Assembly (NCBI GenBank): GCA_002840735.1
Contig: PHBY01000006.1
Location: 1 to 64,000, forward strand
DNA: 64,000 nucleotides
Direction: 5' to 3'
Origin: Chloroflexi bacterium HGW-Chloroflexi-2
Lineage (GTDB): Bacteria > Chloroflexota > Anaerolineae > Anaerolineales > Anaerolineaceae
Under the pieces are notes generated by a model that saw only the letters and a program-made list of their open reading frames with translations, searched no databases and was not told the DNA's origin. Each line of letters begins with the position of its first letter. The stretch's first letter is position 1. The position numbers and the translations under genes were made by a program. Positions 3,387 through 63,103 of the stretch are shown in pieces.

Positions 3387-5288
3387 ATGGCTAAAACTGC
3401 ATGGATAAATCTATCGACCGCTGAAATCCGGGTGGAAGAAACAAATCCGGAACTGCACCAGCAATATCTGGGTGGACGTGGATTAGGGGCAAAATATTTA
3501 TATGATCTTGTGCAACCCGGGATTGACCCGTTTGGACCGGAAAATTATTTGATTTTTACCAATGGTTTATTCAGTGGCACCTCCTGGCCTTCCGCTTCTC
3601 GCTACCATGTCACCTTCAAATCCCCGGCTACCAATGGGTATGGATACGCCAATTCTGGTGGTGGATTTGGTCCGGAGCTTGCCATGGCAGGCTATGATGC
3701 CCTGGTTTTCTATGGCATCTCCCCCTCACCGGTTTATTTGAAGATCACTGACGCGTCCATTTCCCTGGAAAATGCCGAGCATCTTTGGGGAAAACGCACC
3801 GGAGAAGTACAGGATATTTTATTAGGAGCTGGTACGCCAACCGGCGCCAATGGTCGCGTATCCTGTATTGGGCCAGCAGGTGAGAATCTCGTTCGCATTG
3901 CATCCATCATTAATGATTATGGCCGCGCTGCTGCCCGTGGTGGTCCAGGGGCTGTGATGGGATCCAAAAACCTGAAGGCTGTTCATGTCAAAGCCTCTTC
4001 CAAAGGCAAGAACAATCCCGAACTACGTGGAGAGATTAAACGTCTGAACCAACACCTGCGCAAAGACCCAAAGATGCAGGGATTGATCGACACCGGCACT
4101 GTTTTTCTGATGCGTATCAAAAACATCAGTGGTGATCTCCCCGCCAGGAACCATCAATTCGGGCAGGTACCTTTCATCGACAAGATGGATGGCACTGCCT
4201 TGAAGGAATACCGCACCAAACGGATGGGCTGCCGTTTCTGTCCGGTACAATGCTCCTGTGAATCAGTCGGACAGGGATCTGAAGGTCTCATTCATACGGA
4301 AGGTCCGGAATATGAGACTACCGATGCATTGGGTCCTGTGGTCTGGAATGATGATGTCAATGTTATTATTGAAGGCAATTATCTCTGTAATGAACTGGGA
4401 TTGGATACCATTTCAACTGGCAAAGTAATTGGATTTGCGATGGAATGCCATGAAAAAGGAATTCTCTCCGATGCAGATTTTAGTCTGGAGTGGGGTGATG
4501 CCTGCACCATTCTTGGTTTGATGAAAAGTATTTCCTATCGCAAGGGGATCGGTGATCTGCTGGCAGAAGGTACTAAACGTGCTGCTGAAAAAATTGGTCA
4601 TGGTGCTGATGCTTATGCCATGCATGTAAAGGGACTTGAAATCCCGGAGCAGGAACCTCGCGTTTCCAAGGGCTTTGGTTTGGGACATGCAGTCTCTAAT
4701 CGCGGCGCCGATCATCTGTATGGGTTACCTGCCATTGATCTGGGTGGTAACTTTGAAACCGCCAGAAAGATTTTCCCCGCAGAAATTATTGATGAACTGA
4801 TGGAATCGTATAACGAAAAATATAAAGCAGACATGTTAATTTATGGTGAGCATTTCTGTGCTTTAACCGATGCTTTTGGTGTCTGCAAATTCACTACCAC
4901 TGAGGAATACAGCCTCTTACCATCTGATTTCTTGCCTGGTTTAAAGATTCTGGGATACGACCTGGATGAAAAATCTTTATTAAAGATTGGTGAACGTATC
5001 GTTAATCTGGAACGTCTCTTCAATATTCGTGAAGGCTTTAACCGCAAAGATGATAATTTGCCCAGGCGATTTACGACTGAAGAGATGCCGATTTATGCCA
5101 ATGAAAGAGATCCCGAAACAGGAAAAACAATCCTGGGCAAGCAAATCGGAACAGCAATCATTCAGGATTTGGATGCCATGCTGGATCGATATTATCAGTT
5201 ACGCAACTGGGACGAAATGGGAAAACCAAAACCTGAAAAACTTCAGGAACTGGATTTATTAAGGGAATTTGACATAACAATTGGTTAA
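3387..5288 (+). CDS. Tungsten-type aldehyde:ferredoxin oxidoreductase
   Basis: The 633-residue protein has the full length of AOR-family enzymes, which oxidise aldehydes to acids with ferredoxin as electron acceptor. It opens with the family N-terminus (LGGRGLGAKYLYD) and carries the pterin-binding stretch AAARGGPGAVMGSKNLKA. The [4Fe-4S] ligands appear as C282-x2-C285-x3-C289 (CRFCPVQC), with the distal Cys near residue 500 (FGVCKF). The start is supported by GAGG seven bases upstream. It is the first gene of an operon with a three-subunit molybdenum hydroxylase and a MoaD-like protein, which suggests joint processing of an aldehyde or aromatic compound. The metal could be W or Mo, and the substrate cannot be read from sequence. 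Confidence 0.9.
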   Translation: MAKTAWINLSTAEIRVEETNPELHQQYLGGRGLGAKYLYDLVQPGIDPFGPENYLIFTNGLFSGTSWPSASRYHVTFKSPATNGYGYANSGGGFGPELAMAGYDALVFYGISPSPVYLKITDASISLENAEHLWGKRTGEVQDILLGAGTPTGANGRVSCIGPAGENLVRIASIINDYGRAAARGGPGAVMGSKNLKAVHVKASSKGKNNPELRGEIKRLNQHLRKDPKMQGLIDTGTVFLMRIKNISGDLPARNHQFGQVPFIDKMDGTALKEYRTKRMGCRFCPVQCSCESVGQGSEGLIHTEGPEYETTDALGPVVWNDDVNVIIEGNYLCNELGLDTISTGKVIGFAMECHEKGILSDADFSLEWGDACTILGLMKSISYRKGIGDLLAEGTKRAAEKIGHGADAYAMHVKGLEIPEQEPRVSKGFGLGHAVSNRGADHLYGLPAIDLGGNFETARKIFPAEIIDELMESYNEKYKADMLIYGEHFCALTDAFGVCKFTTTEEYSLLPSDFLPGLKILGYDLDEKSLLKIGERIVNLERLFNIREGFNRKDDNLPRRFTTEEMPIYANERDPETGKTILGKQIGTAIIQDLDAMLDRYYQLRNWDEMGKPKPEKLQELDLLREFDITIG

Positions 5289-45727: not shown

Positions 45728-47137
45728 ATGAAAATGAAGAAGAAAATTTTTACATTATTTGTAACGTTGATGGTTGTCGCATTGATCATCACCTCTTGCG
45801 CGCCTGCAGCCCCTACAGCTGCACCAGTTGTTGAGCAGCAACCTACAAAAGCACCGGAACCAACCAAAGCGCCAGAACCAACCGCGGCAACCGTTGAAGA
45901 ACCTGCGCCACAACCAGTTGAAACAGTTGAATTACGCATGACCTGGTACACAGATGGCAATGAAGATGTAGCCATACGTGAGCTGTTGGACAAATTCGAA
46001 GCTGCCAATCCGGATATCAAGGTGGTTTTAGATAATGTCGCTTATTCAACAATTCTGGAGAATTTACCTATCCAATTAGAAGCTGGTCAAGGCCCAGATA
46101 TGGCTAGAGTAACCCAATTAGGGGATTTATCCCCATACTACCTTGATCTAACACCCTATCTTTCTGATCCAGGTTATTGGGAAGAAAACTTCGGTCCGTT
46201 CCTGAATTGGATGCGCCCTCCTGGAGATACTGAAGGTATCTACGGTATGATGACCCAATTGACTGTTACCGGCCCATACATCAACCGAACCTTATTTGAC
46301 CAGGCTGGCATTGCCGTACCCAGTGACAGTTCCGACTCAGTTACCTGGGAAGAATGGGCAGATGTAACCCGACAGGTGGCCGAAGCTACAGGAACAGATT
46401 TTGCTATGACGATGGATCGAACCGGACACCGCTTGGCTGGTCCAGCCATCAGCCAGGGAGCTAAATTCTTTGATGCAGATGGTTTTCCTGTCATTGATGA
46501 TGAAGGATTCCGCAAAATGGCTCAATTGATGATTGATTGGCACAAAGACGGAACAATGCCCATGGACGTTTGGGCAGGCGCTACCGGTTACCTGCCTGCA
46601 GCTGATTTCTTTATCAATGGACAGACAGTATTATATATGTCTGGCTCATGGCAGATCGGACAGTTCAATGAGAAAATTGGTGATGCCTTCGATTGGGAAG
46701 TGATTCCAAATCCATGTGGTCCTGCAGCCTGTACTGGTATGCCTGGTGGTGCTGGTTTGGTTGGTATTAAAACAACCAAATACCCTGAACAGGTTGCCCG
46801 AGTTCTCGATTTCCTGGCACAGGAAGAAAATATTGCCCAATTCTCGGCCAAGACACTTTTCATTCCTGGACATTTAGGATTATCAGTGAAGGGTGTTGAA
46901 TACGAAACTGATCTGGAACAGGCTAAACAAGCCTTGAATATGTTCGTTTCTCAGGTTGGAAAATTGGACCAGATTGCTTATGATATGCAGGCTTACACCT
47001 ATAATACCATTGTGCTTAACGCAATCCGTGATAGATTAACACAGGTATTTGTTGGTGAATTAACCCTTGATGAAGCAATCGTGCGTATGCAACAAGAAAT
47101 TGATGATGGTCTTGCTGCAGAAGGTGTTGTAAGATAA
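45728..47137 (+). CDS. Sugar ABC transporter substrate-binding lipoprotein
   Basis: This 469-residue family 1 binding protein has a lipobox LIITSC (Cys about residue 25) and a Pro/Thr-rich linker. It then has the MalE-like fold: ELLDKFEAANPDIKVVLDNV, GQGPDMARVTQLGD, MTWYTDGNEDV. It delivers an oligosaccharide or sugar to the two permeases that follow. The ligand cannot be read from sequence. A strong hairpin after the stop likely boosts its expression over the permeases. Confidence 0.92.
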   Translation: MKMKKKIFTLFVTLMVVALIITSCAPAAPTAAPVVEQQPTKAPEPTKAPEPTAATVEEPAPQPVETVELRMTWYTDGNEDVAIRELLDKFEAANPDIKVVLDNVAYSTILENLPIQLEAGQGPDMARVTQLGDLSPYYLDLTPYLSDPGYWEENFGPFLNWMRPPGDTEGIYGMMTQLTVTGPYINRTLFDQAGIAVPSDSSDSVTWEEWADVTRQVAEATGTDFAMTMDRTGHRLAGPAISQGAKFFDADGFPVIDDEGFRKMAQLMIDWHKDGTMPMDVWAGATGYLPAADFFINGQTVLYMSGSWQIGQFNEKIGDAFDWEVIPNPCGPAACTGMPGGAGLVGIKTTKYPEQVARVLDFLAQEENIAQFSAKTLFIPGHLGLSVKGVEYETDLEQAKQALNMFVSQVGKLDQIAYDMQAYTYNTIVLNAIRDRLTQVFVGELTLDEAIVRMQQEIDDGLAAEGVVR

Positions 47138-47154
47138 ATTAATTTAATACCTTA

Positions 47155-47191
47155 TACAGGGTGGAAGTAAGTTCCACCCTGTAATTTTTTC
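47155..47191 (+). terminator. Terminator-like hairpin after the sugar-binding protein gene
   Basis: TACAGGGTGGAA (47155-47166) pairs perfectly with TTCCACCCTGTA (47172-47183), followed by ATTTTTT. It stands between binding protein and permeases, the same arrangement as in the liv operon. Confidence 0.78.
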
Positions 47192-47214
47192 TTTGAAAAA
47201 CATTGGAGATCTGA

Positions 47215-48243
47215 ATGAATAATATTAATAAACCCAATCTCATAAAAATTATCAAAGATGGTCTGACAGCTTCCGCAAATTGGATTCTTAACATCTTTGT
47301 TAATACGATGGATTGGATCATGGATCCCATTCAACGAAAAATTGGCGTAAAACGAATGGCGTATATTTTCTTGTTGCCAAATTTATTGATTTTTGGAATT
47401 TTTGTATTATTTCCAATGTTACTAAATTTCTATTATGCTTTTACTGGTGGTACTAAATTATTTCCTCAGGATCGACCATTTGTCGGATTTGAGAATTTTC
47501 GAATCCTATTGGAATGTGAAAATTATTTTAACCCCAACACCTGCACAGAAGATTTATTCTGGCGGGCAGTCTATAACACCTTGAAATTTGTTGTTTTTCA
47601 GGTTGGGGGAATGATAATTCTGTCATTAATTACTGCACTTATTCTTAATCGCAAAATCGTTGCACGTGGATTTTTCCGCAGTGTTTTCTTTTATCCAGTC
47701 TTATTATCTCCCGTCGTGGTTGCTTTGATCTGGAAGTGGATCTTACAACGTGATGGCTTGTTCAATGCCGTCATCATGCAATTTGGTGGAGAGCGTATTA
47801 ACTTCCTGCTGGATGCAAATTGGGCTACATTTTGGGTTATATTTATCAGTATCTGGGCAAATATGGGCTTCTTTACCCTGATTCTTCTGGCAGGTTTGCA
47901 GTCTATACCTCCTGATTTATATGAAGCAGGGTCCATGGATGGCACAAATGACTGGCAAAGTTTCTGGCATATCACCATGCCATTATTGATGCCCACCATG
48001 TTTGTTGTTTTAGTGCTTTCATTGATTCGAGCTGTTCAGGTATTTGATCAGATATACGTGTTAACCGGTGGTGGTCCTGGTTCAGCAACTTTGTATATGG
48101 TGCAGTACATCTACAACAAAGGTTTTTCTGACCAGATCCACATATTTGGTCTGGCTGCAGCAGCTTCCGTGTTAATGGCAGTTGTATTAATGATCTTCAC
48201 CCTGATTCAATTGTATCTTACCCGAAAATCAGATGCTGTATAA
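47215..48243 (+). CDS. Sugar ABC transporter permease (MalF-like)
   Basis: The 342-residue permease has six or seven membrane helices. It carries the EAA loop EAGSMDGTNDWQSFWHITMPLLMP, shown here by EAGSMDGTNDWQSFWHITMP. A longer N-terminal cytoplasmic stretch (about 45 residues) precedes helix one. It pairs with the next gene. No ATPase is encoded in the cluster, so a shared MsmX/UgpC-type ATPase from elsewhere is likely. Confidence 0.92.
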   Translation: MNNINKPNLIKIIKDGLTASANWILNIFVNTMDWIMDPIQRKIGVKRMAYIFLLPNLLIFGIFVLFPMLLNFYYAFTGGTKLFPQDRPFVGFENFRILLECENYFNPNTCTEDLFWRAVYNTLKFVVFQVGGMIILSLITALILNRKIVARGFFRSVFFYPVLLSPVVVALIWKWILQRDGLFNAVIMQFGGERINFLLDANWATFWVIFISIWANMGFFTLILLAGLQSIPPDLYEAGSMDGTNDWQSFWHITMPLLMPTMFVVLVLSLIRAVQVFDQIYVLTGGGPGSATLYMVQYIYNKGFSDQIHIFGLAAAASVLMAVVLMIFTLIQLYLTRKSDAV

Positions 48244-48262
48244 CCGAAAGGTATAGGAAATT

Positions 48263-49315
48263 ATGGATATTAAAAAATTTCTATTCCGAACTCGTATTTC
48301 TAAAAAGATTGGTGTTTCCGATATTCTCACTTATCTCTATTTGTTCTTTGGTGTGATACTGATGTTTGGTCCAGTTCTCTGGCTTATCCTATCTTCATTT
48401 AAAACACCGGCAGCATTAGTAAAATTTCCTCCATCCATATTGCCCTATGGACAAGAATCCATCGTGGTTGAAGGTTTTGACGATCCATTACCATTGTACA
48501 TTGTTACTTTTCCTGATGGTAGTGAACAAAAAATGGCTCAAGTCCGTAGAGTGGGATTAGAAGCTCAAATGATTGATCCTGAGAATCCCTCTGAGATCGT
48601 AAAAGTTTCCATCAATGATCGCACGGAGTCAAATAAGCTTCAATTTGAGTGGGCGAATTATACAGATTCCTTAAAGAGCTTTAATTTCATAACCTATTTA
48701 AAAAATAGTGTCGTTGTTACCGTTGCAGCAACAATTGTCACTTTGATCATCAACAGTATGGCAGCCTTTGCCTTAAGTAAATATGAATTCAAAGGAAGAA
48801 ATCTGATATTTATAATCATTATCAGCACATTGTTAATCCCTATTTCCGTTATCCTGGTGCCTGTTTTCCTGGTTATCACTGAAATGAACCTGAATAATAA
48901 TCTGTGGGGAGTGATTATTCCAGGAGCAGCGACGCCAACCGGTGTGTTTTTGCTGCGACAATATATGTTAACCATTCCAGATGAGTTGATTGCAGCCGCA
49001 AGAATTGATGGCGCATCCGAATGGCGTATATATTGGCAGGTGATGCTACCATTGGCAGCACCTGCATTAGCTGTACTAACCATATTTTCGGTCATGTGGC
49101 GTTGGAATGACTTTTTATGGCCATTAATTGTTCTCAGCAAAAATGAATTGTTCACACTTCAGGTAGGTCTCAATTCCTTCCAGGGTGAATTAAACGTAAA
49201 ATGGAATTATATTCTGGCTATGACGGTTATGACCTTATTACCTATTTCTGCTGTCTTTGCCTTCTTGCAAAAATACATAACCACAGGGATCTCTTCAACT
49301 GGATTGAAAGGCTGA
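48263..49315 (+). CDS. Sugar ABC transporter permease (MalG-like) with enlarged external loop
   Basis: The 350-residue permease has six helices and the EAA loop AAARIDGASEWRIYWQVMLP. Between helix one and two (about residues 50-130) it has about 80 extra hydrophilic residues (VTFPDGSEQKMAQVRRVGLE), forming an extracytoplasmic insert absent from standard MalG proteins. It may contact the binding protein. AGGA precedes the start. Confidence 0.92.
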   Translation: MDIKKFLFRTRISKKIGVSDILTYLYLFFGVILMFGPVLWLILSSFKTPAALVKFPPSILPYGQESIVVEGFDDPLPLYIVTFPDGSEQKMAQVRRVGLEAQMIDPENPSEIVKVSINDRTESNKLQFEWANYTDSLKSFNFITYLKNSVVVTVAATIVTLIINSMAAFALSKYEFKGRNLIFIIIISTLLIPISVILVPVFLVITEMNLNNNLWGVIIPGAATPTGVFLLRQYMLTIPDELIAAARIDGASEWRIYWQVMLPLAAPALAVLTIFSVMWRWNDFLWPLIVLSKNELFTLQVGLNSFQGELNVKWNYILAMTVMTLLPISAVFAFLQKYITTGISSTGLKG

Positions 49316-51873: not shown

Positions 51874-52617
51874 TTAAAATATCTTTATAATCATAAAAAC
51901 TGCTGTTGCTATCAAAAAAAGATGAATCCCTTTTTCAAAAGCAGATAATGACATCGAGCGATTGATCCTATCCCCCACGAATAGACCGATGAAAAACATG
52001 GGAACCAATACCCAGAAATATTGAATTACTTCCTCAGTGATCAATCCAGTTGCTCCTTGGCCCAGTAAAATGATGATCCCAACCGGAAAGAAGTAGGCTT
52101 GCAAAGTAGCACGAAATGAATCGGCTGGCCATTTTCGGAGTGTTCCAAAAATAACTGCCAAAGGTCCATTGGCGTTGTACGCTGCTCCCAATATCCCCGC
52201 AAAAAAACCAAATATGTAAGCGGTGTGTTTACTTACCCTAGCTTTCATCTGTGGTTTGATTAAATTATATACAGAAAAAATGATGATAACCACCGCCAGG
52301 ATGCCGGTAACCAGTGCCTCGTACACCTTGGTTAGCAACAAAAGCCCTAATGGGATTCCACATAACGACGCCAGAACCAGGCGCCAGGCACTGCTGATGT
52401 CCACTTTCCGCCAATTAAATAGCAAAATAAATAAAGCGTTGAATGTGTTTAAAGCAGCAGCAATCGGCGCAGCTGTTTGAACACCAATTACGAGAGTCAA
52501 TAAGGGCATTGCTATTAACCCGCCCCCAAATCCAAATACTGAACGAACCATCGTAGCAAAAAATAGAATAAACCCAATCAATATGGGTAACAAACTAATA
52601 TCATTCATTAAATCCAT
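51874..52617 (-). CDS. TauE/SafE-family anion exporter
   Basis: The 247-residue protein has about eight membrane helices. It shows the family signatures FGFGGGLIAMPLLTLV and GFFAGILGAAYNANGPLAVI. TauE/SafE proteins export sulfite, sulfoacetate and other organosulfonates or organic anions, and several sulfonate-degradation clusters include one. AAAGGA precedes the ATG. It is the last gene of the eight-gene operon, 55 bases after the aldehyde oxidoreductase. Its position suggests export of the acid made by that enzyme. Confidence 0.9.
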   Translation of the reverse strand: MDLMNDISLLPILIGFILFFATMVRSVFGFGGGLIAMPLLTLVIGVQTAAPIAAALNTFNALFILLFNWRKVDISSAWRLVLASLCGIPLGLLLLTKVYEALVTGILAVVIIIFSVYNLIKPQMKARVSKHTAYIFGFFAGILGAAYNANGPLAVIFGTLRKWPADSFRATLQAYFFPVGIIILLGQGATGLITEEVIQYFWVLVPMFFIGLFVGDRINRSMSLSAFEKGIHLFLIATAVFMIIKIF

Positions 52618-52672: not shown

Positions 52673-54517
52673 CTATTTTGAAAATGAGGTGAGCTCCAAG
52701 CGAGTTTTTGTCTCCTGGTTGGGTTGACCCTGTTCATCCCAGCCTCTCAGGGCATAATAATCATTCAGAATGATCTCCATATCGGGTAATTTCCCTTTTG
52801 ACCCGCCAGTGGGACGAGGAAAAGTTTTAAGTCGCTGAGGGAGATCATCATCTTTGCGAGAAACTCCCAGGCGATTATTGATGATCCGTTTCAAATTGAA
52901 AATTCGTTCACCCGTTTCCAGCAATTCTTTCTCCGTGATATCCCAGCCTGTGGCAGCATTGATGAAATCACCCAGTAATTGTGGGCTCGGGCTGGCTTTT
53001 CCTATAAATTTGCAAATGCCCAGTGGGTTGTAGGTGGAAAAAAAATTTTGAAATGCCACAGCTTCCTGAGCGGCATCTTCATTGGAGAAGCGATCGACTT
53101 TCTTCGGTGACCACGCGGAAGCATCCAAACCGTAAATTGCCCAATACGATAACCCTTCCAGGTGACAGCCGCCCCGATTCGCCGTTGCATAGTTTGCTGC
53201 CATAGAAAACGTCGCCCTGGGATCATGATAAGCCAATTCCAGACCTTTTACATGCGTTGCATAAACCTCAGATTGATTTTGTAAATGCTGGGATGCTGCC
53301 CGTGAGCCTGATGATAGGATCACACCAACACCACGACGCTCAACCATCAATTTTAAACAAACCATCAACGAGTCCGGGTTACCCCATTCCAATGGTTGTT
53401 GATCACAATCTTCTTTTTGAATCAATCCGTTTTCATAGGCTTCAAACGCAAAAGCAGCGGTGGCTGAAGCGCTGATCGTATCAATTCCCATACGATTGCA
53501 AAAGTCATTTGCTCTCAACATGGTGTCCAGATCGTCAATCTCCAACATCGCGCCAAGTCCTGCTAATGTTTCATATTCAGGCCCTTCACCTTGAATCACA
53601 GTTCCATCCTTCAAAACAGCATCGACTCTTTTACCACAACCAATTGGGCAGGCAAAACAAAAGGTTTGTTTTACAGTATGTTGTTCTGCCATACTTTGGC
53701 CACTGATATTTTCAGCGCCATCTGACCAATTTCCAACCAGATAATTATGAATGGGTAAATCCCCCATTGCTTCTGCACCGGCTACCCCCCCAGCTGTGCC
53801 AAATTTTGATAAGCCGACCGTTTTGCTTTGAATGACAGGGTTCTGTTGCTTGACTAATGTGTGGAATAACTTTGGATCGGCTGGCTCAACCTTTTCCTTG
53901 CCATAAGCAACAATGCCTTTCACCAATTTACTGCCCAAAACTGCCCCCATGCCACCTCTGCCGGCAGCGCGACTGTGCGTACGCCCCCCCTGAAGCACCG
54001 CTGCAAACAGGACTAGATTCTCGCCAGCCGGCCCGATCAAAGCTGCCCTTGCTTTTGGATGAGTTTCATTAATCAATTGATCATACGTATCGAATGTATC
54101 CAGTCCCCACAGGTGTTTGGCAGAACGAATTTCCACTTCTCCATCATGAACAAACAAATAAATTGGTTGATCTGCTTTTCCAGTGATCACCAGCCCATCA
54201 ATGCCTGCTTTTCTTAATTCTGCGCCAAAATGACCACCCAGATTGGATTCATTCCAAATCCCGGTTAGAGGGCTTCTGCCACAGAAACTAATCCGGCATG
54301 CAGTTGGCAAAATCGATCCGGTTGTTAACCCATTGAAAATATATATCGAATTTTCCGCTTCCAATGCGCCAACAGTTGGATCCATTTCTCTGGCATAGAG
54401 CATGGCTGCAAACCCGCTACCAAGAAAATAACGACGTGCATCTTCTTCGCGAATATATTCTGTTTTCACTTCTCTCGTTGAGAGATTAACACGCAGATAT
54501 TTGCCTGAAATTACCAT
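52673..54517 (-). CDS. Aldehyde:ferredoxin oxidoreductase (second copy)
   Basis: I start at the ATG at 54517, with GAAAGGG upstream, giving 614 residues. It has the AOR pterin-binding stretch RAAGRGGMGAVLGSKLVKG and the [4Fe-4S] ligands C287-x2-C290-x3-C294 (CFACPIGC), with a late Cys in LGICKF. It differs from the 3387-5288 copy throughout, so it is not a recent duplicate. It lies between a GH31 gene and a TauE/SafE exporter. This suggests it oxidises the terminal aldehyde of the sugar pathway and passes electrons to ferredoxin. Confidence 0.9.
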   Translation of the reverse strand: MVISGKYLRVNLSTREVKTEYIREEDARRYFLGSGFAAMLYAREMDPTVGALEAENSIYIFNGLTTGSILPTACRISFCGRSPLTGIWNESNLGGHFGAELRKAGIDGLVITGKADQPIYLFVHDGEVEIRSAKHLWGLDTFDTYDQLINETHPKARAALIGPAGENLVLFAAVLQGGRTHSRAAGRGGMGAVLGSKLVKGIVAYGKEKVEPADPKLFHTLVKQQNPVIQSKTVGLSKFGTAGGVAGAEAMGDLPIHNYLVGNWSDGAENISGQSMAEQHTVKQTFCFACPIGCGKRVDAVLKDGTVIQGEGPEYETLAGLGAMLEIDDLDTMLRANDFCNRMGIDTISASATAAFAFEAYENGLIQKEDCDQQPLEWGNPDSLMVCLKLMVERRGVGVILSSGSRAASQHLQNQSEVYATHVKGLELAYHDPRATFSMAANYATANRGGCHLEGLSYWAIYGLDASAWSPKKVDRFSNEDAAQEAVAFQNFFSTYNPLGICKFIGKASPSPQLLGDFINAATGWDITEKELLETGERIFNLKRIINNRLGVSRKDDDLPQRLKTFPRPTGGSKGKLPDMEIILNDYYALRGWDEQGQPNQETKTRLELTSFSK

Positions 54518-54632: not shown

Positions 54633-56831
54633 TTATGCTGGTCTAAAATGCTTAACTTTTACCTCTTGTGGAGTGGTAAATTGGCTTTTTCCGTCTATGG
54701 ATTCCCATTGGAGATAAGATATATTACGACATAAGTCCGGTTGAGGTTCACCGAATATCCACAATTCTTCTACCACTTCAATTTCGTTTAATTGACCGGT
54801 ATGTTGCACAACGGGTCCTAAAGGCAAACAGGTTCCTTCCCTGCCAAACACAGGAATTTCATTGAGGGGAACATCGGTAAAAGACACTTCTTGTCCACCT
54901 TGATATAATTGCCCACTCCAAAGATGATACCAGTTACCTTTTGGAAGATAAACACTTACCTGATTGCCGGGTTGGATGATCGGAGCAACCAATAATGTTT
55001 CTCCAAGCAAGTATTGTTCTTCAAACGACCAGGCTGCTCTTTCATGAGGAAAAGCCAGAGCCATCGATCGAACAACAGGCAATCCAGCTTGATTGGCTTC
55101 TTTCTCACAACCCTTAACATACGGGATTAAACGATATCGAAAACGAATCCATTCTGTGATAATTGCTTCAACTTCGGGACCAAAAATCCAGGGTTCACGT
55201 TCACCGACTCCATGAAAACGAGTGTGAGAACACATAACACCTGCCTGGGCCCAACGCACAAACAATTCTGGATCTTTCAGCGTTCCATACCATCCCCCGA
55301 TATCATGAGCAGAAAAAGAACCACCACTCATTCCCCAGGACTGTACCCCGCGAATACTGGCTGCCAGACCTTCCCAATCGGATTGTGGATCACCGCCCCA
55401 TCCAAATGGAAAACGCTGACTACCCGTCCAACCAGAACGTCCCCAAACCATTGGCTTTCCTTTTCCATAAAGGGTCGTTGCTTCATAAACACATTGGTTA
55501 TATAGCAAAGAATAAACATTATGGAGCCGTTCGCCACTATCACCGTTGTAGGCTATTGCTTCATCAGGAACAGACTCACCGAAATCAGTTTTCATCACAG
55601 CCACACCCAAATCAAACAGGTCTTTATGTTTGTCACGGTACCATTCATATGCTTTGGGATTGGTTAAATCGATAATCCCACTTGGACACAATTGGGGTAA
55701 CAAGGTTTCATAAGGTTCTGGTGTCCAATAGTGGACATAAGGAAATCCTTCTTTATTCTTTAATAAAAATCCTGAACTGGCTAATTCACTGAATAATGGA
55801 TTAAATGTTGAAATATAAGGATATTCCCATAAACACAAGCGAACATCCAGATCATCCAGTTGTTTGATGAAAGCCTTCGGATCAGGATATCGATCAGGGT
55901 CCCAGGAAAAATCAAATCGAGTTTCCGGTTTATGCCAGGCTCTTCCATCCAATAAAATTACATCAAGTGGAATTTGTTTTTCACGCATTTTTTTCACAAC
56001 ACTCAGCAATTCATCCGCAGTCTGGTAATAAGCTCTTGCCATCCAAACACCATAACTCCATAAAGGCAACTCTGGTGATTTACCGGTAAGATCTGTATAT
56101 TTATCCAGAATTTCTGCTGGTGAATCCCCCACAAAAAAGAAGAAGTCCAGATTCGAATCTTCAACGCGAAGGATATAACTACGATGTGACCAGGGTGCAA
56201 AACCAATGGCATGCACCACTCTTCCAGGCGTATGAACCAATATTCCCCAACCTTCTGGTGACCAGGCAAAAGGATTGTTTTTGTAGCACCGCTCAGAATT
56301 CAATCCTAAAGCATCATAATTCCAACTGGTGATCATCTCACCGCGATGATTGAGTTTTCCAAATTTTTCCCCAAGTCCAAATAATGGTTCACCACTTTTT
56401 AAAGCTAAGGACATCTGCCAGGCTTCGCTATTTTTATGCGCAAAGGGATGAAAACGAGGTTTTCCTTCCATGCTAATATCTGTAATACTTTCAAGCAGTT
56501 TTTTATCTCCTTTTTTTAGTTTTATCGAGAAAGGAGAATAAATAATTTCTATAGATACATCAGCGGATTGAATGATCACAGATGAACCAGTTTTAATCAA
56601 CTCACAATCGACTTCGCTTTTCTCAGCAACCAGTAATCCATAATCGAACACTTCTTTTGACTGAAAATTAAATCGAATGAGACCTGGAGCATAGAAATAC
56701 ACATCCAGGGGACCGCATTCACTAAAAAAACGCATGCCACCAGGTATTGGATGATTTGGTTTTACCGAAGTCATTCTTTGAAACCCGATTTGTGCATGAA
56801 TTGACTCTAGGTCTAAAAATTCACACTTCAC
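54633..56831 (-). CDS. GH31 family glycosidase (alpha-xylosidase/YicI-like)
   Basis: The start is GTG at 56831, because AAGGAG stands six bases upstream (56838-56843); the longer frame from TTG at 56921 has no ribosome-binding site. The 732-residue enzyme has nucleophile Asp416 in KTDFGE and acid/base Asp481 in WGGDPQSDW. LLDGRAWHKPETRFDFSWDP is closer to the YicI alpha-xylosidase branch. The KRxxW sulfonate motif of sulfoquinovosidases is not present at the matching position, where the sequence reads ETRF. It sits mid-operon between the RpiB-like isomerase and the AOR. Confidence 0.88.
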   Translation of the reverse strand: MKCEFLDLESIHAQIGFQRMTSVKPNHPIPGGMRFFSECGPLDVYFYAPGLIRFNFQSKEVFDYGLLVAEKSEVDCELIKTGSSVIIQSADVSIEIIYSPFSIKLKKGDKKLLESITDISMEGKPRFHPFAHKNSEAWQMSLALKSGEPLFGLGEKFGKLNHRGEMITSWNYDALGLNSERCYKNNPFAWSPEGWGILVHTPGRVVHAIGFAPWSHRSYILRVEDSNLDFFFFVGDSPAEILDKYTDLTGKSPELPLWSYGVWMARAYYQTADELLSVVKKMREKQIPLDVILLDGRAWHKPETRFDFSWDPDRYPDPKAFIKQLDDLDVRLCLWEYPYISTFNPLFSELASSGFLLKNKEGFPYVHYWTPEPYETLLPQLCPSGIIDLTNPKAYEWYRDKHKDLFDLGVAVMKTDFGESVPDEAIAYNGDSGERLHNVYSLLYNQCVYEATTLYGKGKPMVWGRSGWTGSQRFPFGWGGDPQSDWEGLAASIRGVQSWGMSGGSFSAHDIGGWYGTLKDPELFVRWAQAGVMCSHTRFHGVGEREPWIFGPEVEAIITEWIRFRYRLIPYVKGCEKEANQAGLPVVRSMALAFPHERAAWSFEEQYLLGETLLVAPIIQPGNQVSVYLPKGNWYHLWSGQLYQGGQEVSFTDVPLNEIPVFGREGTCLPLGPVVQHTGQLNEIEVVEELWIFGEPQPDLCRNISYLQWESIDGKSQFTTPQEVKVKHFRPA

Positions 56832-56923
56832 TTCTAACTCCTTGGTTATGTTATTAGTTGACTCATCATGACTAATTTCAGTAGATGTTTTCGATTGAAA
56901 ATTTAAGGCAAACGTAATCAAAT

Positions 56924-57409
56924 TTATTTAAAATTTTTTTCCTCTAAGACCTGCACCTGACGAAATGCGTTCTTGAGAAAATCAAGTTTGAACTCCATTT
57001 TTTGGGTAAATTGGACACTCAGCCAGGCATCTACAATCTGGGTGCCAAGAAAAGGAGCTGTGATCCAACCCCCCATTGTAATGATGTTGGCATTATTCAC
57101 AATTTTTGCTCTTTCGCCAGAGAAAATATCGTCCACCACACAGGCGTACACTCCTTTATGTTTATTGGCTACAATCGCCATACCCTGACCTGTACCACAG
57201 ATCAATATTCCTTTTTCTACGCGTTGAGTTTGAACTACCTCAGCAACTTTCGGAGCCTGTTCAAAATATGGTTTTGGATTTTCAACGGAATCAATCCCAA
57301 AATCGAGCAGGTCGATATCTCCTCTTCGCTTCAGGTGATCAACAATCGCTTGTTTTAAAGGAAAACCAGAAAGATCGGATGCAATGGCGATACTAATTTT
57401 TTCAGTCAT
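56924..57409 (-). CDS. RpiB/LacAB-family sugar isomerase
   Basis: The 161-residue protein has the RpiB fold: IAIASDLSGFPLKQAIVDHL, then GILICGTGQGMAIVANKHKG containing the catalytic Cys, and NANIITMGGW. RpiB interconverts ribose 5-phosphate and ribulose 5-phosphate, while LacAB homologues act on other sugar phosphates. The sulfoerythrose isomerase of the sulfo-transketolase route is, as I recall, from this family. GGAG precedes the ATG. It follows the transketolase genes by 11 bases. Confidence 0.9.
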   Translation of the reverse strand: MTEKISIAIASDLSGFPLKQAIVDHLKRRGDIDLLDFGIDSVENPKPYFEQAPKVAEVVQTQRVEKGILICGTGQGMAIVANKHKGVYACVVDDIFSGERAKIVNNANIITMGGWITAPFLGTQIVDAWLSVQFTQKMEFKLDFLKNAFRQVQVLEEKNFK

Positions 57410-57420
57410 AATTTCTCCTT

Positions 57421-58380
57421 TTAGATTTTTACCGCAGTCATTTTCTTTTCGAGTACTTTTTCAGCGTGCTCTACAATGACGGTTGCTGTTAATCCAAACC
57501 TCTCTTTGAGATAATCAAGTGAACCTACCTCCCCGAAGAGATCTTTCACACCAACCCTCACCATAGGTGTGGGAATTTCTTCCACAAGAACTTCAGCAAC
57601 AGCAGAGCCAAGCCCATTAACAATTTGATGATTTTCGCAGGTCACTATCGCGCCACAGGTCGCAGCAAGCTGAATGACAAGGTTGCGATCGATTGGTTTA
57701 ATGGTATGCATGTCAACAACCGTAGCAAAAATCCCTCTTTCTGCCAGTAAAGTAGCAGCTTTCAAAGCTTCACCTACCATCACAACACCGGTTGCAATCA
57801 GCGCTACATCCTGACCCTCCCGCAAAATTTTTCCTTTTCCCAATTCAAAATCCTCATTTTCATCGTATAACACATCAGCAAAACTACGATGTAATCGCAT
57901 GTAGGTACATCCATAGTACTCAACACAGGCCTGCATAAGTTTTTTTAATGATATGGGGTCACTCGGTTCAAATATGACTAATTTTGGGATGGTCCGCATA
58001 ATTCCCATATCTTCAAAAGCCATATGGGTACCACCATTTAATGCAGCCGTGACTCCAGGGTCACTACCAACCAGCTTGACATTGAGTCTGGCATAATTGG
58101 CAGAAATGAAAAATTGATCAAACGTTCTTCGGGTTGCAAAACATGCAAATGTATTGGCGAAAGGTAGTTTGCCGGCAGAAGAAAGTCCAGCAGAAATACT
58201 GACCATATTAGCTTCGGCAACGCCCACATTAAAGGTTCGATGAGGAAATTCATCTTTAAAGTTTTTCGAACCAGTTGCCCGCATAAGATCAGCCTCTAAG
58301 AGAACAATCCGTTCATCCAGTTGACCTAATTTAAGCAGAGTTTCTGTGTAGACAGCACGCATTTCTAATTGATTACTCAT
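57421..58380 (-). CDS. Transketolase, C-terminal subunit (split type)
   Basis: The 319-residue subunit carries the pyrimidine-binding domain of a two-gene transketolase: GVAEANMVSISAGLSSAG, PFANTFACFATRRTFDQF. The C-terminal transferase domain follows (AATCGAIVTCENHQIVNGLG). The ATG at 58380 has AAGGAG upstream. It must pair with the next gene upstream to be active. The partner lies 17 bases away. Confidence 0.92.
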   Translation of the reverse strand: MSNQLEMRAVYTETLLKLGQLDERIVLLEADLMRATGSKNFKDEFPHRTFNVGVAEANMVSISAGLSSAGKLPFANTFACFATRRTFDQFFISANYARLNVKLVGSDPGVTAALNGGTHMAFEDMGIMRTIPKLVIFEPSDPISLKKLMQACVEYYGCTYMRLHRSFADVLYDENEDFELGKGKILREGQDVALIATGVVMVGEALKAATLLAERGIFATVVDMHTIKPIDRNLVIQLAATCGAIVTCENHQIVNGLGSAVAEVLVEEIPTPMVRVGVKDLFGEVGSLDYLKERFGLTATVIVEHAEKVLEKKMTAVKI

Positions 58381-58397
58381 TTTTTCTCCTTGCATGT

Positions 58398-59216
58398 TTA
58401 TAATTTTGCAATGGCTGCAAGAGCAGTTTCATAATCCAGTTTCATATTATGGTTGGTAGACTGATTTTCAGCAAAATCTACACCCTTACCTTTTATCGTA
58501 TCCATAACGATCATGGAAGGTCTCAAAGGCTCATGTTTCGCCCTTTCAATAGCTAAATCGATTTGTGGCAGATCATGGCCATTTATTCTTTGAACAAACC
58601 AACCAAAACTTACCCATTTGGCTGTCAGGTCTTCGATGTTCATGATTTCATGCATGAAACCATCCAGTTGTAATTTGTTGTAGTCGGTAAAAGCGATAAT
58701 ATGATGTAATTTGAACTGTGCGGCAGCCTGTGCTGCTTCCCAGACCTGACCTTCGTTTGATTCCCCATCACCAATGATGACAAAGATTTTGCTGGCGATG
58801 CCATCCAATCGATGACTGAGCGCAATACCAATAGCTGCAGACAACCCTTGCCCTAGGGAACCGGTTGTCATATCAATCCCTGGTGTCAGATTTCGATCAC
58901 AGTGACTGGGTAAACGTGTACCACCTCGATTGAGGGTATGCAACCAATCCTTGGGGAAGTAACCTTTATCAGCCAACACACTATAAAGCGCGGGGCCAGC
59001 ATGTCCTTTGGATAAAACCAGTTGATCACGATCCACTTTACGTGGATTTGAGGGATCAATATCCATGTGACGGTAATACAACATGGTAAGCACTTCCACA
59101 ACCGACATGGAACCACCTAAATGCCCAATACCTAGATAACCAATGGCATCAATCGTCAGGGCTCTGATTTCTTTTGCTTTGTCAGTCAATTCTGCAAGGG
59201 TTTTGTCGTCCATCAT
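58398..59216 (-). CDS. Transketolase, N-terminal (thiamine-diphosphate-binding) subunit
   Basis: This 272-residue subunit has GHLGGSMSVVEVLTMLYY, SKGHAGPALYSVL, GSLGQGLSAAIGIAL, and the ThDP/metal motif GDGESNEGQVWEAA with the later Asn in FTDYNKLQ. The ATG at 59216 is preceded by AGGAGG nine bases upstream. An earlier ATG at 59240 overlaps the preceding stop (ATGA) and is the alternative. Together with the next gene it transfers two-carbon ketol units. Confidence 0.93.
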   Translation of the reverse strand: MMDDKTLAELTDKAKEIRALTIDAIGYLGIGHLGGSMSVVEVLTMLYYRHMDIDPSNPRKVDRDQLVLSKGHAGPALYSVLADKGYFPKDWLHTLNRGGTRLPSHCDRNLTPGIDMTTGSLGQGLSAAIGIALSHRLDGIASKIFVIIGDGESNEGQVWEAAQAAAQFKLHHIIAFTDYNKLQLDGFMHEIMNIEDLTAKWVSFGWFVQRINGHDLPQIDLAIERAKHEPLRPSMIVMDTIKGKGVDFAENQSTNHNMKLDYETALAAIAKL

Positions 59217-59236
59217 TCTATGAATCCTCCTGATTC

Positions 59237-60568
59237 TCATAATGCAAGCGTAGGTATCTTTAGATAACGTGCAATCGTAGCTAATTCAGCTGTAAAATTT
59301 CCATAGGTAAGGGAAAGATGGTGCTCCAATCCATTGCTCATAATGGTATCCAAAACCTTTCTGGCAGGATTATCAAATCGCACCAATCCGGAAGTGCCAG
59401 AGAATTGTCTTTCGGACGCTAACATGTTTGCTTTTCCAATTACCAATTTAAAATCGAGGGAGGCTTCACTTAGTCGGGCCAGTGTAATTTCTCCGGGTTT
59501 GAGTGAAAATTCCATTAATAATGGTAATTTACGATTGGTATGAACAATCCCGCGAGGTTTCACTTTGGGATCTGCCATGGAGAGTGGAGCTAACCCACAG
59601 TGCCAAAAGACCGCTGTGTCTTCCTCTAAATTCATGTGAACCAGATCTGTTCCAAACGCAGGTTCACCACTCAATGTTTGTAAGATCAATTGTGTAACCG
59701 TTCCATTCAGATCTGCCTCACAACTGCATGGGATGCGTTGATCAGACATTAATGACATGGCACCGCAAGCTGCACATCCTAATTCTGTAAAAAATTCTGG
59801 CCAACAGCGCACCGCCAAACCTTTCAAATTCTCTTCCTGTGAGACTTCCTGCATTACCAGATACGTTTTTAATGTACCATTCAAGGATGCCTGATCAAGA
59901 TCCTCCAGACCGTCCAGTCTTTGATACAGATCCTTACGTAAAGGACCGATTGAATGGTCGGATATCTTCCTGACACGGTTAAACAAAGTGTCCAATTCGA
60001 TTTGAACCATCTCCAGACCAAAAATCTTTTCCAATCCGGTTGAATTGGGGATACAACTATCAAAGCCATTTGGATGGTATCCAAATTTGCCAATTTTTGT
60101 TCCTTTTAAAGTCCTGATGGCGTAACCGGCATTGGTTAAAACTTTAATTTTTTCAAGGGCAGCTGGTTCTTCTGGCAATGTGTATAAATAATCATAGGTA
60201 TAACCGGTACGATGCAAGGAGTGCCCGGTTAGATTGATCCCACACAGGGAATTTAGCCGCAATCTCCCACCACCCGGTTCTTCTGGTACCGCCCATAGTA
60301 ACACCGGACCGTCAGTCTCGCTGACAATTTGTTTTGCTAAATCACTATCGGCAAATGAACAATATAGCAAAATGATCAAATCGAATGGGTTTTGATTCAT
60401 TTGATGAATAATTTCTTGAACTCTTGAGGAATCAGTCACCAATTCCGATGGACCGGAGAGGACAAATCCAGCCTGTGATAATGCTGTTTGTGTCCTCTGG
60501 AAAATTTCTGATGCAAAGGGAATATCAAACGTCGTTCGAGCGATAGGAATTAATGCGATGGTTCTCAA
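59237..60568 (-). CDS. FucI/AraA-fold sugar isomerase
   Basis: The 443-residue protein has the L-fucose/L-arabinose isomerase superfamily layout. An N-terminal Rossmann-like half ([40 protein letters not shown]) is followed by a C-terminal barrel containing [40 protein letters not shown] and a HCG/H-containing strand. Such proteins interconvert aldoses and ketoses using Mn2+. As I recall, the sulfoquinovose isomerase of one published sulfoglycolysis route belongs to this superfamily. The TTG start overlaps the ROK gene's stop by four bases, with GGAG upstream. Confidence 0.82.
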
Positions 60569-61803
60569 AAACTTTTCTCCTGTTCCTGAATTTCATTGAG
60601 GTCGTAAAAATAAGTACTTAATGCCAAAGCAGAAGCACCAATCACACCGGTTTTCTGCCCAAATCCTGATACACAAATCCTAACCTGATCTCCAAGGTGA
60701 CTGAAAGAATATTCATTTACTACCTTCTTGATCTCCGGCAAAAAGTATTCTTCACCCTGTTCCAGTATCCCGCCTAACACAATCAAGTTGGGATTAAGAA
60801 TATTGATTAAATTTGCTAGTGCAATACCAAAATATTTTGCTTTTTCTGCAAGCATTTTTAAAACTTCTTCATCTCCATCCTGAGCGGCGGAAAAAACACA
60901 ATCCATTTCATTACTTTGACAATCTCCAAATTTTTGCGCCAGAATGCCGGTTGGGTTTGCTTCTGCCAGATACATTGCAGATTTTATGATCGCATTCTGT
61001 GATACCAATGTCTCCAGGCAGCCATGATTACCGCAACTACATTTTTCTCCACCATCCGGAATCATAATACTATGCCCGATTTCACCTGCCCCGGCAGCCA
61101 TACCACGAAACAATTTTCCATTAACAAATAAACCAGCACCGACCCCCACTCTGGCATACACAAAAGCCATCACATTGTCGGTTTTGCCTTCCCCAAACAT
61201 TGCTTCTGCCAGGCACATTAAGCGTACATTATTGTCCACAATCACCGGTAATCCAGTTCCCAGATGGATCCAATCCCGAATGGGAATGTGTTGCCAGCAC
61301 AAATTTGGTGCATTGATATTCACACCCGTTTCAACATTGACCAAACCAGAAGCGCCAACCCCAATTCCCACAATAAGATTTTTTGAAATCCCGGATTGAA
61401 TGATCAGGAGATCAATCTGAGTAACAATTTCTTGAATGACAATCTCAGCAGACTCACATACCTCAAATTTTTGTGTTGTAAATGAGACAATATTTGCCAA
61501 TAGGTCTGTAATAACAATCTGATACTCCCCAATTCCGATATGAACACCGATCGCAAATCGAGCATCCGGTATAAGTTCAACCGTCATTCTCGGGCGACCG
61601 ACACGTGGGGAAATCACCTGTTCAATTCCATTTTCACGAACCAATCCCTGCGATAATAATTCATTTACCAGATTACTGATGGTTGCCGTCGTGAGACCCG
61701 TAAGCTCTGCCAACTCAACTCGCGAAATTTGTTGATGGTAGAGTAAAGCTTTCAAAATGGAACGAATATTTAGGGATTTTGCTGTAACCTGATTACTGCC
61801 CAA
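60565..61803 (-). CDS. ROK-family transcriptional repressor (NagC/XylR-like)
   Basis: The 412-residue protein has an N-terminal winged helix (LLYHQQISRVELAELTGLTT) and a ROK domain with the zinc site (CSCGNHGCLETL). The ATP site that would read DxGxT reads GVHIGIG, so it is a sugar-sensing repressor and not a kinase. It is the first gene of the operon and starts with a TTG. A promoter with an AT-rich inverted region lies just upstream, which fits autoregulation. Confidence 0.9.
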   Translation of the reverse strand: MGSNQVTAKSLNIRSILKALLYHQQISRVELAELTGLTTATISNLVNELLSQGLVRENGIEQVISPRVGRPRMTVELIPDARFAIGVHIGIGEYQIVITDLLANIVSFTTQKFEVCESAEIVIQEIVTQIDLLIIQSGISKNLIVGIGVGASGLVNVETGVNINAPNLCWQHIPIRDWIHLGTGLPVIVDNNVRLMCLAEAMFGEGKTDNVMAFVYARVGVGAGLFVNGKLFRGMAAGAGEIGHSIMIPDGGEKCSCGNHGCLETLVSQNAIIKSAMYLAEANPTGILAQKFGDCQSNEMDCVFSAAQDGDEEVLKMLAEKAKYFGIALANLINILNPNLIVLGGILEQGEEYFLPEIKKVVNEYSFSHLGDQVRICVSGFGQKTGVIGASALALSTYFYDLNEIQEQEKSF

Positions 61804-62071: not shown

Positions 62072-63103
62072 ATGTCTGATGAATTTCTGTTTCATTCCAA
62101 TTCTAAAATATTGAGACATCCTGAAAATCCGATTCTCACAAGACACGATGTGCCATATCCTGCCACATTGGTATTTAATGCTGGTGTCACTTTTTATTCA
62201 GGTGAATACGTATGTGTATTTCGTAATGATTTTGGTGAATGGGGTAATCCTGAGTTAGTTGGTACGAACCTGGGGTTAGCTACCAGTAGCGACGGTATTC
62301 ATTGGAAAGTGAATTCAAAACCAATCTGGACTGTAGAAGATGTTATCAAAGACACTGCAACATTTTTTTCTGATTTTTCAAATGAGAGTGAAATTCTTCG
62401 CGCTTATGATCCAAGACTTACGGTCATTGAAGACCAATGTTATATGTGTTTTGCTTTGGATACCCGTCATGGGTTGAGGGGTGGTATAGCAAGAACTACA
62501 GATTTTCACCATTTTGAAGTGCTCAATTTATCCACACCTGACAACAGAAATATGGTTCTTTTTCCAGAAATGATCAACGGAAAATATTTTCGCCTCGAAC
62601 GTCCGATGCCAGTATATAGCCGTCAGATGCAAACCCATTTTGATATCTGGAGCTCAGATTCGTCTGATTTGAAGTATTGGGGGAACCATCAAGGCGTTTT
62701 ATGGCTTGAGCAGGTACCTTTTGCCAATGATAAAATCGGCCCATCTGCTCCACCCGTTAAAACCAGATATGGTTGGTTGACATTGTTTCATGCTGTAGAC
62801 CGTGATCCTAATAGAGGTAAAAATGGTTGGGAGGAAATCTGGCAAAAACGTTATTCAGTTGGTGTCATGTTGCTGGATTTGGAAGATCCGGCAAAGGTAA
62901 TCGGTATGAGCAAAGAACCCTTGATGGTTCCTGAATATTCATATGAGAAAAATGGATTTCGGAATGATGTGTTGTTCCCGGGAGGTATGATACTTGAAAA
63001 AAGTGGAGAAGTTAAAATATATTATGGTGCAGCTGATACTGTTGAATGTTTAGCTACAGCAGATGTAAATGATTTATTGAACCTGTGTGTTAACCGGCCG
63101 TAA
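62072..63103 (+). CDS. GH130-family glycoside phosphorylase-like protein
   Basis: The 343-residue protein has the five-bladed propeller pattern of GH130 beta-mannoside phosphorylases: NPILTRHDVPYPATLVFNAG, LGLATSSDGIHW, AYDPRLTVIEDQCYMCF, and NDVLFPGGMI with IYYGAADT. The family releases mannose 1-phosphate or similar products from beta-mannosides. It diverges from the ROK operon and may share its regulation. No strong ribosome-binding site is visible, so a very short leader is possible. Confidence 0.85.
   Translation: MSDEFLFHSNSKILRHPENPILTRHDVPYPATLVFNAGVTFYSGEYVCVFRNDFGEWGNPELVGTNLGLATSSDGIHWKVNSKPIWTVEDVIKDTATFFSDFSNESEILRAYDPRLTVIEDQCYMCFALDTRHGLRGGIARTTDFHHFEVLNLSTPDNRNMVLFPEMINGKYFRLERPMPVYSRQMQTHFDIWSSDSSDLKYWGNHQGVLWLEQVPFANDKIGPSAPPVKTRYGWLTLFHAVDRDPNRGKNGWEEIWQKRYSVGVMLLDLEDPAKVIGMSKEPLMVPEYSYEKNGFRNDVLFPGGMILEKSGEVKIYYGAADTVECLATADVNDLLNLCVNRP

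Follow-up and report, generated by a model that had tools for sequence, protein, structure and literature searches.

Sulfoquinovose (SQ) is a plant sulfosugar produced in gigaton amounts, and other microbes are supplied with sulfonates when it is broken down anaerobically. In the sulfoglycolytic transketolase (sulfo-TK) pathway, SqvD isomerises SQ, SqwGH serves twice as a TPP-dependent transketolase, and SqwI is a second isomerase, of family PF02502 (PMC12890257, PMC9594981). The pathway is known to end in either of two ways: NADH-dependent SqwF forms isethionate, which is exported by SqwE, or, as far as reviews recount it, the CoA-acylating, NAD-linked SqwD and the ADP-forming SqwKL yield sulfoacetate and ATP (PMC12890257, PMC9594981). 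A first-pass annotation of the DNA studied here had stated that pathways of this kind normally finish with an NAD(P)-dependent enzyme, and both known endings agree with that.

Ferredoxin-linked oxidation of a sugar-derived aldehyde does have precedents, as PfGAPOR and CbGOR oxidise glyceraldehyde 3-phosphate in this way (PMC13328260). The same annotation therefore went too far in supposing the principle undescribed for sugar breakdown; for sulfosugars, no paper with an aldehyde:ferredoxin oxidoreductase (AOR) in a sulfo-TK pathway was found in the CC-licensed PMC literature, where absence is weak evidence. The main text of a 2026 classification of tungsten-containing oxidoreductases (WORs) has no transketolase, TauE or Chloroflexota (PMC13328260), and no discussion of Chloroflexota as sulfo-TK hosts was found in the literature covered. 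AORs near sulfonate genes are already known, from the DHPS operon of Desulfovibrio and from Pyrococcus furiosus, for whose WOR5/ASOR activity on aliphatic sulfonates has been reported (PMC13328260). The purified Desulfovibrio AOR failed to reduce viologen when given sulfolactaldehyde, lactaldehyde or acetaldehyde, and the NAD-dependent SlaB did the sulfolactaldehyde step in that organism (PMC6278857).

The window analysed here, a stretch of 64 000 nucleotides, comes from an uncultured member of the Anaerolineaceae (Chloroflexota), as placed from its relatives. It holds eight genes that are transcribed in the order ROK regulator, SQ isomerase homologue, transketolase N-terminal half, transketolase C-terminal half, RpiB-family isomerase, GH31 glycosidase, AOR and TauE (table 1). 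Upstream of GH31, the five genes either overlap or are separated by 2–11 nt, GH31 ends 115 nt upstream of the AOR, and TauE follows 55 nt downstream. Since all share one strand and the upstream genes are so closely spaced, a single operon is plausible, in keeping with the first-pass annotation, which had placed the AOR in one operon with its GH31 and TauE/SafE neighbours and had left its strand (minus) unstated. Its description of a sugar-degradation operon also holds and can be narrowed to the sulfosugar type, as the SQ-isomerase-like gene, split transketolase and RpiB-like isomerase make up a sulfo-TK core. GH31 and the AOR aside, the gene set is, by homology, that of the sulfo-TK pathway, and the AOR is found where one would look for an enzyme known to act on sulfoacetaldehyde (SqwF, or SqwD with SqwKL).

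Table 1. Positions of the features discussed; those without a locus label refer to the window.
Feature	Position	Strand	Evidence
ROK-family regulator, N-terminal winged HTH, operon gene 1	60565..61803	-	PF00480 2.3e-51 and HTH matches
SQ isomerase homologue, SqvD/SftI-like	59237..60568	-	NCBIfam NF048012 337 bits, E 1.5e-100, full length
Transketolase N-terminal, ThDP-binding half, SqwG/SqwH-like	58398..59240	-	Transketolase_N 1.6e-49
Transketolase C-terminal half, SqwH/SqwG-like	57421..58395	-	Transket_pyr and Transketolase_C (Pfam)
RpiB/LacAB-family isomerase, SqwI-like	56924..57409	-	PF02502 1.5e-37
GH31 glycosidase (GH31x)	54633..56921	-	Pfam GH31 domains
AOR, WorL-type, 614 aa	52673..54517	-	Pfam AFOR_N and AFOR_C, 1aor match
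TauE/SafE-family anion exporter, SqwE-like position	51874..52617	-	PF01925 6.6e-30
Sugar ABC transporter	45728..49315	+	Binding protein 45728-47137, permeases 47215-48243 and 48263-49315
Sulfo-transaldolase-type cluster with TauE and distant AOR	L095:17292-21328
Sulfo-transaldolase-type cluster with TauE and distant AOR	L115:11384-15933

Clostridium sp. MSTE9, whose sulfo-TK pathway (SqvD, SqwGH, SqwI, SqwF, SqwE) makes isethionate, resembles this locus, which has an SQ-isomerase-like gene, a split transketolase, an RpiB-family isomerase and a TauE/SafE protein; the locus differs from it in having an AOR for the NADH-dependent SqwF, a GH31 enzyme without the YihQ signature and a host from the Chloroflexota rather than the Clostridia. 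The Acholeplasma-type pathway (SqwD with SqwKL), as portrayed in reviews, has the net conversion predicted here, sulfoacetaldehyde to sulfoacetate, but uses two enzymes and gains NADH and ATP, where this operon would use one enzyme and gain reduced ferredoxin. A sugar ABC transporter is encoded convergently with the operon. Its permeases are 59–71% identical to permeases encoded right next to the SQ isomerase at numerous Chloroflexota loci, the transketolase loci L100 and L092 among them, and it is a candidate importer of SQ or SQ glycosides; it is not next to the cassette in two other genomes of the genus (G005 and G002), so the linkage varies. A gene for a GH130-family, mannoside phosphorylase-like protein (62072-63103) lies divergent from the operon and is an operon neighbour in G007 too.

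The equivalog cut-off of the NCBIfam sulfoquinovose isomerase model is 700 bits, and the window's homologue falls below it. Its score is nevertheless higher than those of isomerases found beside a YihQ-type sulfoquinovosidase and an FSA-type transaldolase at four other loci (L049, L115, L138 and L144; 293–324 bits, 47–52% identity), so the shortfall looks like divergence of the phylum. A PDB search with the SQ-isomerase profile returned only marginal matches to L-fucose/arabinose isomerases. A second gene of the SQ-isomerase family in the same genome (L064:7642-8961, contig C24), 28% identical and beside a GH31 gene, may serve a different substrate. For the transketolase, present as a split pair, we propose sulfofructose as substrate. 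The RpiB-like isomerase is 66–91% identical to homologues in other transketolase clusters and keeps D9, C66, T68 and N100 of E. coli RpiB, with H10 changed to L, H99 to V or I, and the R of ‘GSRVVG’ to W. In RpiB, H10 and H99 presumably serve phosphate binding and sugar-ring opening. As 4-deoxy-4-sulfoerythrose has no hydroxyl for ring closure, the loss of both histidines is consistent with a SqwI acting on this four-carbon sulfonate, and we propose the protein as the 4-deoxy-4-sulfoerythrose isomerase, having set it against E. coli RpiB rather than a characterized SqwI.

The AOR gene runs from ATG to stop codon with no internal stop, and the protein matches AFOR_N (1.7e-66) and AFOR_C (3.1e-119) over nearly their full length, bearing out the first-pass description of a complete AOR. 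The closest solved structure is P. furiosus AOR (1aor), matched end to end (E 3.6e-122; about 36–40% identical). The cluster site consists of C287-x2-C290-x3-C294 plus C502, while E316 and H452 are the counterparts of the P. furiosus active-site residues E313 and H448. By sequence, the protein is a member of the AOR/WOR family. No gene for the small subunit WorS was found when the operon was searched with Pfam. In this respect, as in its full-length homology, its four cysteines for the cluster and its catalytic Glu/His pair, the protein resembles P. furiosus AOR and the class I tungsten oxidoreductases; unlike P. furiosus AOR, it belongs to a sulfosugar operon, with which it is conserved. Tungsten would be the metal and ferredoxin the acceptor, as in class I, and a WtpA tungstate-uptake gene is present in the genome, scoring over the curated cut-off. 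P. furiosus WOR5/ASOR (6x1o, 6x6u) is likewise an AOR-superfamily enzyme with a sulfonate link, but it is of class II, has a WorS subunit and a cold-adaptation role, and belongs to a distant clade (E 7.8e-61 versus 3.6e-122 for 1aor). The AOR of Desulfovibrio sp. DF1 (130621), likened here by description rather than by sequence, also lies in a sulfonate-degradation cluster and was proposed for sulfo-aldehyde oxidation; there, SlaB is a partner and the recombinant AOR was inactive, whereas no such partner is found here.

About ten AFOR genes are carried by the genome, the others being at most 38% identical to the cassette AOR; one of the family lies elsewhere in the window (3387-5288, about 33–36% identical). 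In a phylogenetic tree, the cassette AORs form one clade with support of 100/100. The nearest AORs outside it (43–52% identical) have class-III aminotransferases or genes of ABC transporters as neighbours, in one case a polyamine-type transporter, and the cassette link is therefore specific to one AOR clade. The wider subfamily, judged by its neighbourhoods, is not tied to sulfonates, which counts against a role in sulfosugar breakdown. Two of the sister AORs (L159:9486-12652 and L164:2923-5291) directly adjoin class-III aminotransferases, which suggests an amino-acid-derived aldehyde as substrate. Another point on the same side is that the sequence comparison revealed no basic residue specific to the cassette AORs and assignable to the substrate pocket; the few cassette-specific charged residues (K103, K576, R29 and R606) have no pocket location assignable from sequence.

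Four further congeneric genomes carry all eight cassette genes, with AOR identities of 59–92%, so their juxtaposition is not due to chance. The eight-gene order is the same in G007, G005 and G002 (AOR identity 90, 77 and 59%, respectively). In G006, the cassette spans two contigs, one ending in GH31 (L068) and the other starting in GH31 and continuing with the AOR (92%) and TauE (L016); we assign both to one genome because the best AOR of the genome of L068 is at the contig number and position of G006. TauE directly follows the AOR throughout L016–L019, and neighbours outside the eight-gene block differ between genomes. Five of the eight genomes of the genus have the AOR as well as SqwI, and the other three have neither (Fisher p 0.018, only a guide as the eight genomes are related). 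No alcohol or aldehyde dehydrogenase is encoded in the conserved block or within about 18 kb upstream, and neither SqwF nor SqwD with SqwKL is found in the block, leaving the AOR as its sole aldehyde-converting enzyme. Gene content, order and conservation are thus matters of observation, as are the cofactor and active-site residues of the AOR. The first-pass annotation had staked its idea on the AOR co-occurring with transketolase and TauE genes, and the neighbourhood survey finds them together in five genomes. The perfect linkage of AOR and operon rests on one genus, which counts against the role in sulfosugar breakdown.

The real start of the GH31 gene is probably near 56831, since homologues begin near residue 31. 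At the positions of YihQ Q288, R301, W304 and Y508 (E. coli numbering), the window's enzyme has L, E, F and W, and this lack of the sulfonate-binding signature, read from the alignment, counts against SQ as the substrate of the operon; the Q, R, W, Y signature is intact in the GH31 enzymes of L049, L115, L138 and L144. The best NCBIfam match is the alpha-xylosidase YicI model, and at the YicI -1 subsite (F277, C307 and F308) the enzyme has Y, G, and A or R, with gap placement near F308 uncertain. An invariant Arg lies two residues before the F277 position in cassette-type GH31. Among 80 of 154 confirmed SQ-isomerase loci, drawn from a scan that yielded Chloroflexota only, a ROK gene adjoins the SQ isomerase in most; there are 16 occurrences of cassette-type GH31 and 30 of a GH4 gene, and no locus has the two side by side (Fisher p 2e-4, the loci being related). 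L138 holds both a cassette-type and a YihQ-type GH31. We regard the window's GH31 as a candidate unconventional sulfoquinovosidase, perhaps of a new type. The question is of interest since, for some bacteria with the sulfo-TK pathway, neither of the known sulfoquinovosidases is reported to be present (PMC13219744). The GH4-family gene of the SQ-isomerase clusters (for example, L092:14947-16353 and L090:14456-15883; about 30 of the 80 loci) is a possible further sulfoquinovosidase type. An assignment of the 469–476 aa gene of many clusters as a GH188 sulfoquinovosidase was ruled out, as Pfam places it in GH4.

The same scan brought up a second AOR lineage. Two near-identical relatives, L095 and L115, which we count as one event, combine an SQ isomerase with an FSA-type transaldolase, TauE and an M24 peptidase-like gene, and their AOR belongs to a distant clade; L115 also encodes a divergent GH31 with the YihQ signature intact. 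A distant AOR in two related sulfo-transaldolase clusters with TauE suggests that AORs were recruited there independently, and makes this one a candidate sulfolactaldehyde:ferredoxin oxidoreductase. A third AOR type is found near the contig end of L072 (the same contig as L048), along with an SQ isomerase, an ABC transporter and an MFS protein, and in yet other clusters of the Chloroflexota an aldehyde dehydrogenase takes the place of an AOR. The contig of the transketolase locus L100 ends after GH31; L164 was considered as its missing end and rejected, having a truncated AOR followed by an aminotransferase and belonging to the sister group. We entertain, tentatively and with more doubt than belief, a broader scheme in which Chloroflexota twice recruited an AOR as terminal sulfo-aldehyde oxidase, for sulfoacetaldehyde in the sulfo-TK clusters and for conversion of sulfolactaldehyde to sulfolactate in the sulfo-transaldolase clusters L095 and L115, giving a ferredoxin-linked branch of sulfoglycolysis, with the cassette GH31 as a third sulfoquinovosidase type.

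For the operon itself, we consider it probable that it encodes a sulfo-TK pathway whose last step, from sulfoacetaldehyde to sulfoacetate, is ferredoxin-linked, with export via TauE. GH31, perhaps with the neighbouring ABC transporter, would supply SQ, which the SqvD-like isomerase would convert to 6-deoxy-6-sulfofructose. The split transketolase would transfer two carbons to glyceraldehyde 3-phosphate, and 4-deoxy-4-sulfoerythrose would remain; after conversion of this to the ketose by the SqwI-like isomerase, a second transketolase round would release sulfoacetaldehyde. The AOR would then turn sulfoacetaldehyde, H2O and two oxidised ferredoxins into sulfoacetate and two reduced ferredoxins (two electrons), and TauE would export the sulfoacetate. 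An aldehyde/acid couple is able to reduce ferredoxin, that of acetaldehyde/acetate lying at about -0.58 V. We infer the substrates, the ferredoxin acceptor, the tungsten, the energy gain and the cargo of TauE. A gene for a nickel-iron hydrogenase large subunit is present in the genome and is a possible electron outlet; neither an FeFe hydrogenase that could play this part nor the sulfoacetaldehyde acetyltransferase Xsc was found in the genome. WtpA, the hydrogenase, the failure to find Xsc, the isomerase score and the second AOR lineage all lend further support to the predicted ferredoxin-linked pathway. The hydrogenase gene lies outside the window (L190, contig C19:18644-20200) and contains a single in-frame TGA, exactly where the N-terminal RxCGxC motif has its second Cys (RICGV-U); this may point to a selenoprotein with an unusually placed Sec, or to a sequencing error. 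Just beyond the window, the same contig encodes a cytochrome cd1-type protein (cytochrome D1 heme domain and cytochrome c; L189:3981-6065), hinting that the organism may respire besides fermenting.

Another view of the AOR would keep the sulfo-TK operon but have sulfoacetaldehyde turned mainly into isethionate by an alcohol dehydrogenase encoded elsewhere, with the AOR removing leaked aldehyde or balancing redox state. Cultured sulfo-TK bacteria do make isethionate (PMC13219744), and aldehyde detoxification is often assigned to AORs (PMC13328260). Near the transketolase/SqwI/TauE cluster of L092 there is neither an AOR nor any other evident enzyme for sulfoacetaldehyde, which counts against the ferredoxin-linked pathway and means that an unlinked enzyme must act there; the inactive Desulfovibrio AOR counts against that pathway too, by analogy. 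On the other hand, all five genomes retain the AOR at an identical place in the operon, and in three congeners its loss goes with that of SqwI. Detoxification would not require an enzyme to follow the pathway this closely when the genome has about ten other AFOR genes, so we hold this view to be unlikely, though it deserves to be taken seriously.

We think it distinctly unlikely, too, that the operon serves a sugar other than SQ, such as another C6-modified hexose that the transketolase would cut stepwise, the AOR then acting on acetaldehyde (from a 6-deoxyhexose) or on glycolaldehyde. The isomerase match below the equivalog cut-off and the YicI-like rather than YihQ-type GH31 would be explained in this way, yet the GH31 lacks the YicI specificity residues as well, the related isomerases beside intact YihQ-type enzymes and FSA-type transaldolases score no higher, and a TauE-family exporter suits a sulfonate product where plain acetate would need none. 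AOR-family reactions are reversible in principle, which would allow the AOR to run in reverse, or as a ferredoxin-balance regulator, on sulfoacetate imported via TauE. Bilophila does reduce sulfoacetate to sulfoacetaldehyde, by means of SauCD and SauS (PMC12890257). Sulfoacetaldehyde is, however, the predicted end product of the operon, none of whose enzymes would consume an extra supply, and no Xsc was found in the genome; we judge this reversal highly improbable.

The operon is best described as a ferredoxin-linked variant of the known sulfo-TK pathway, well supported by comparative genomics, in which the activity of the AOR is a prediction. If the AOR does carry out the last step, low-potential electrons would be kept, as opposed to being spent by SqwF or recovered only as NADH by SqwD, and this step could yield energy to the cell. 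A physiological role has been assigned in only five of 92 AOR-family clades (PMC13328260), and one more would then gain such a role, with sulfoacetate added as a product of the Chloroflexota.
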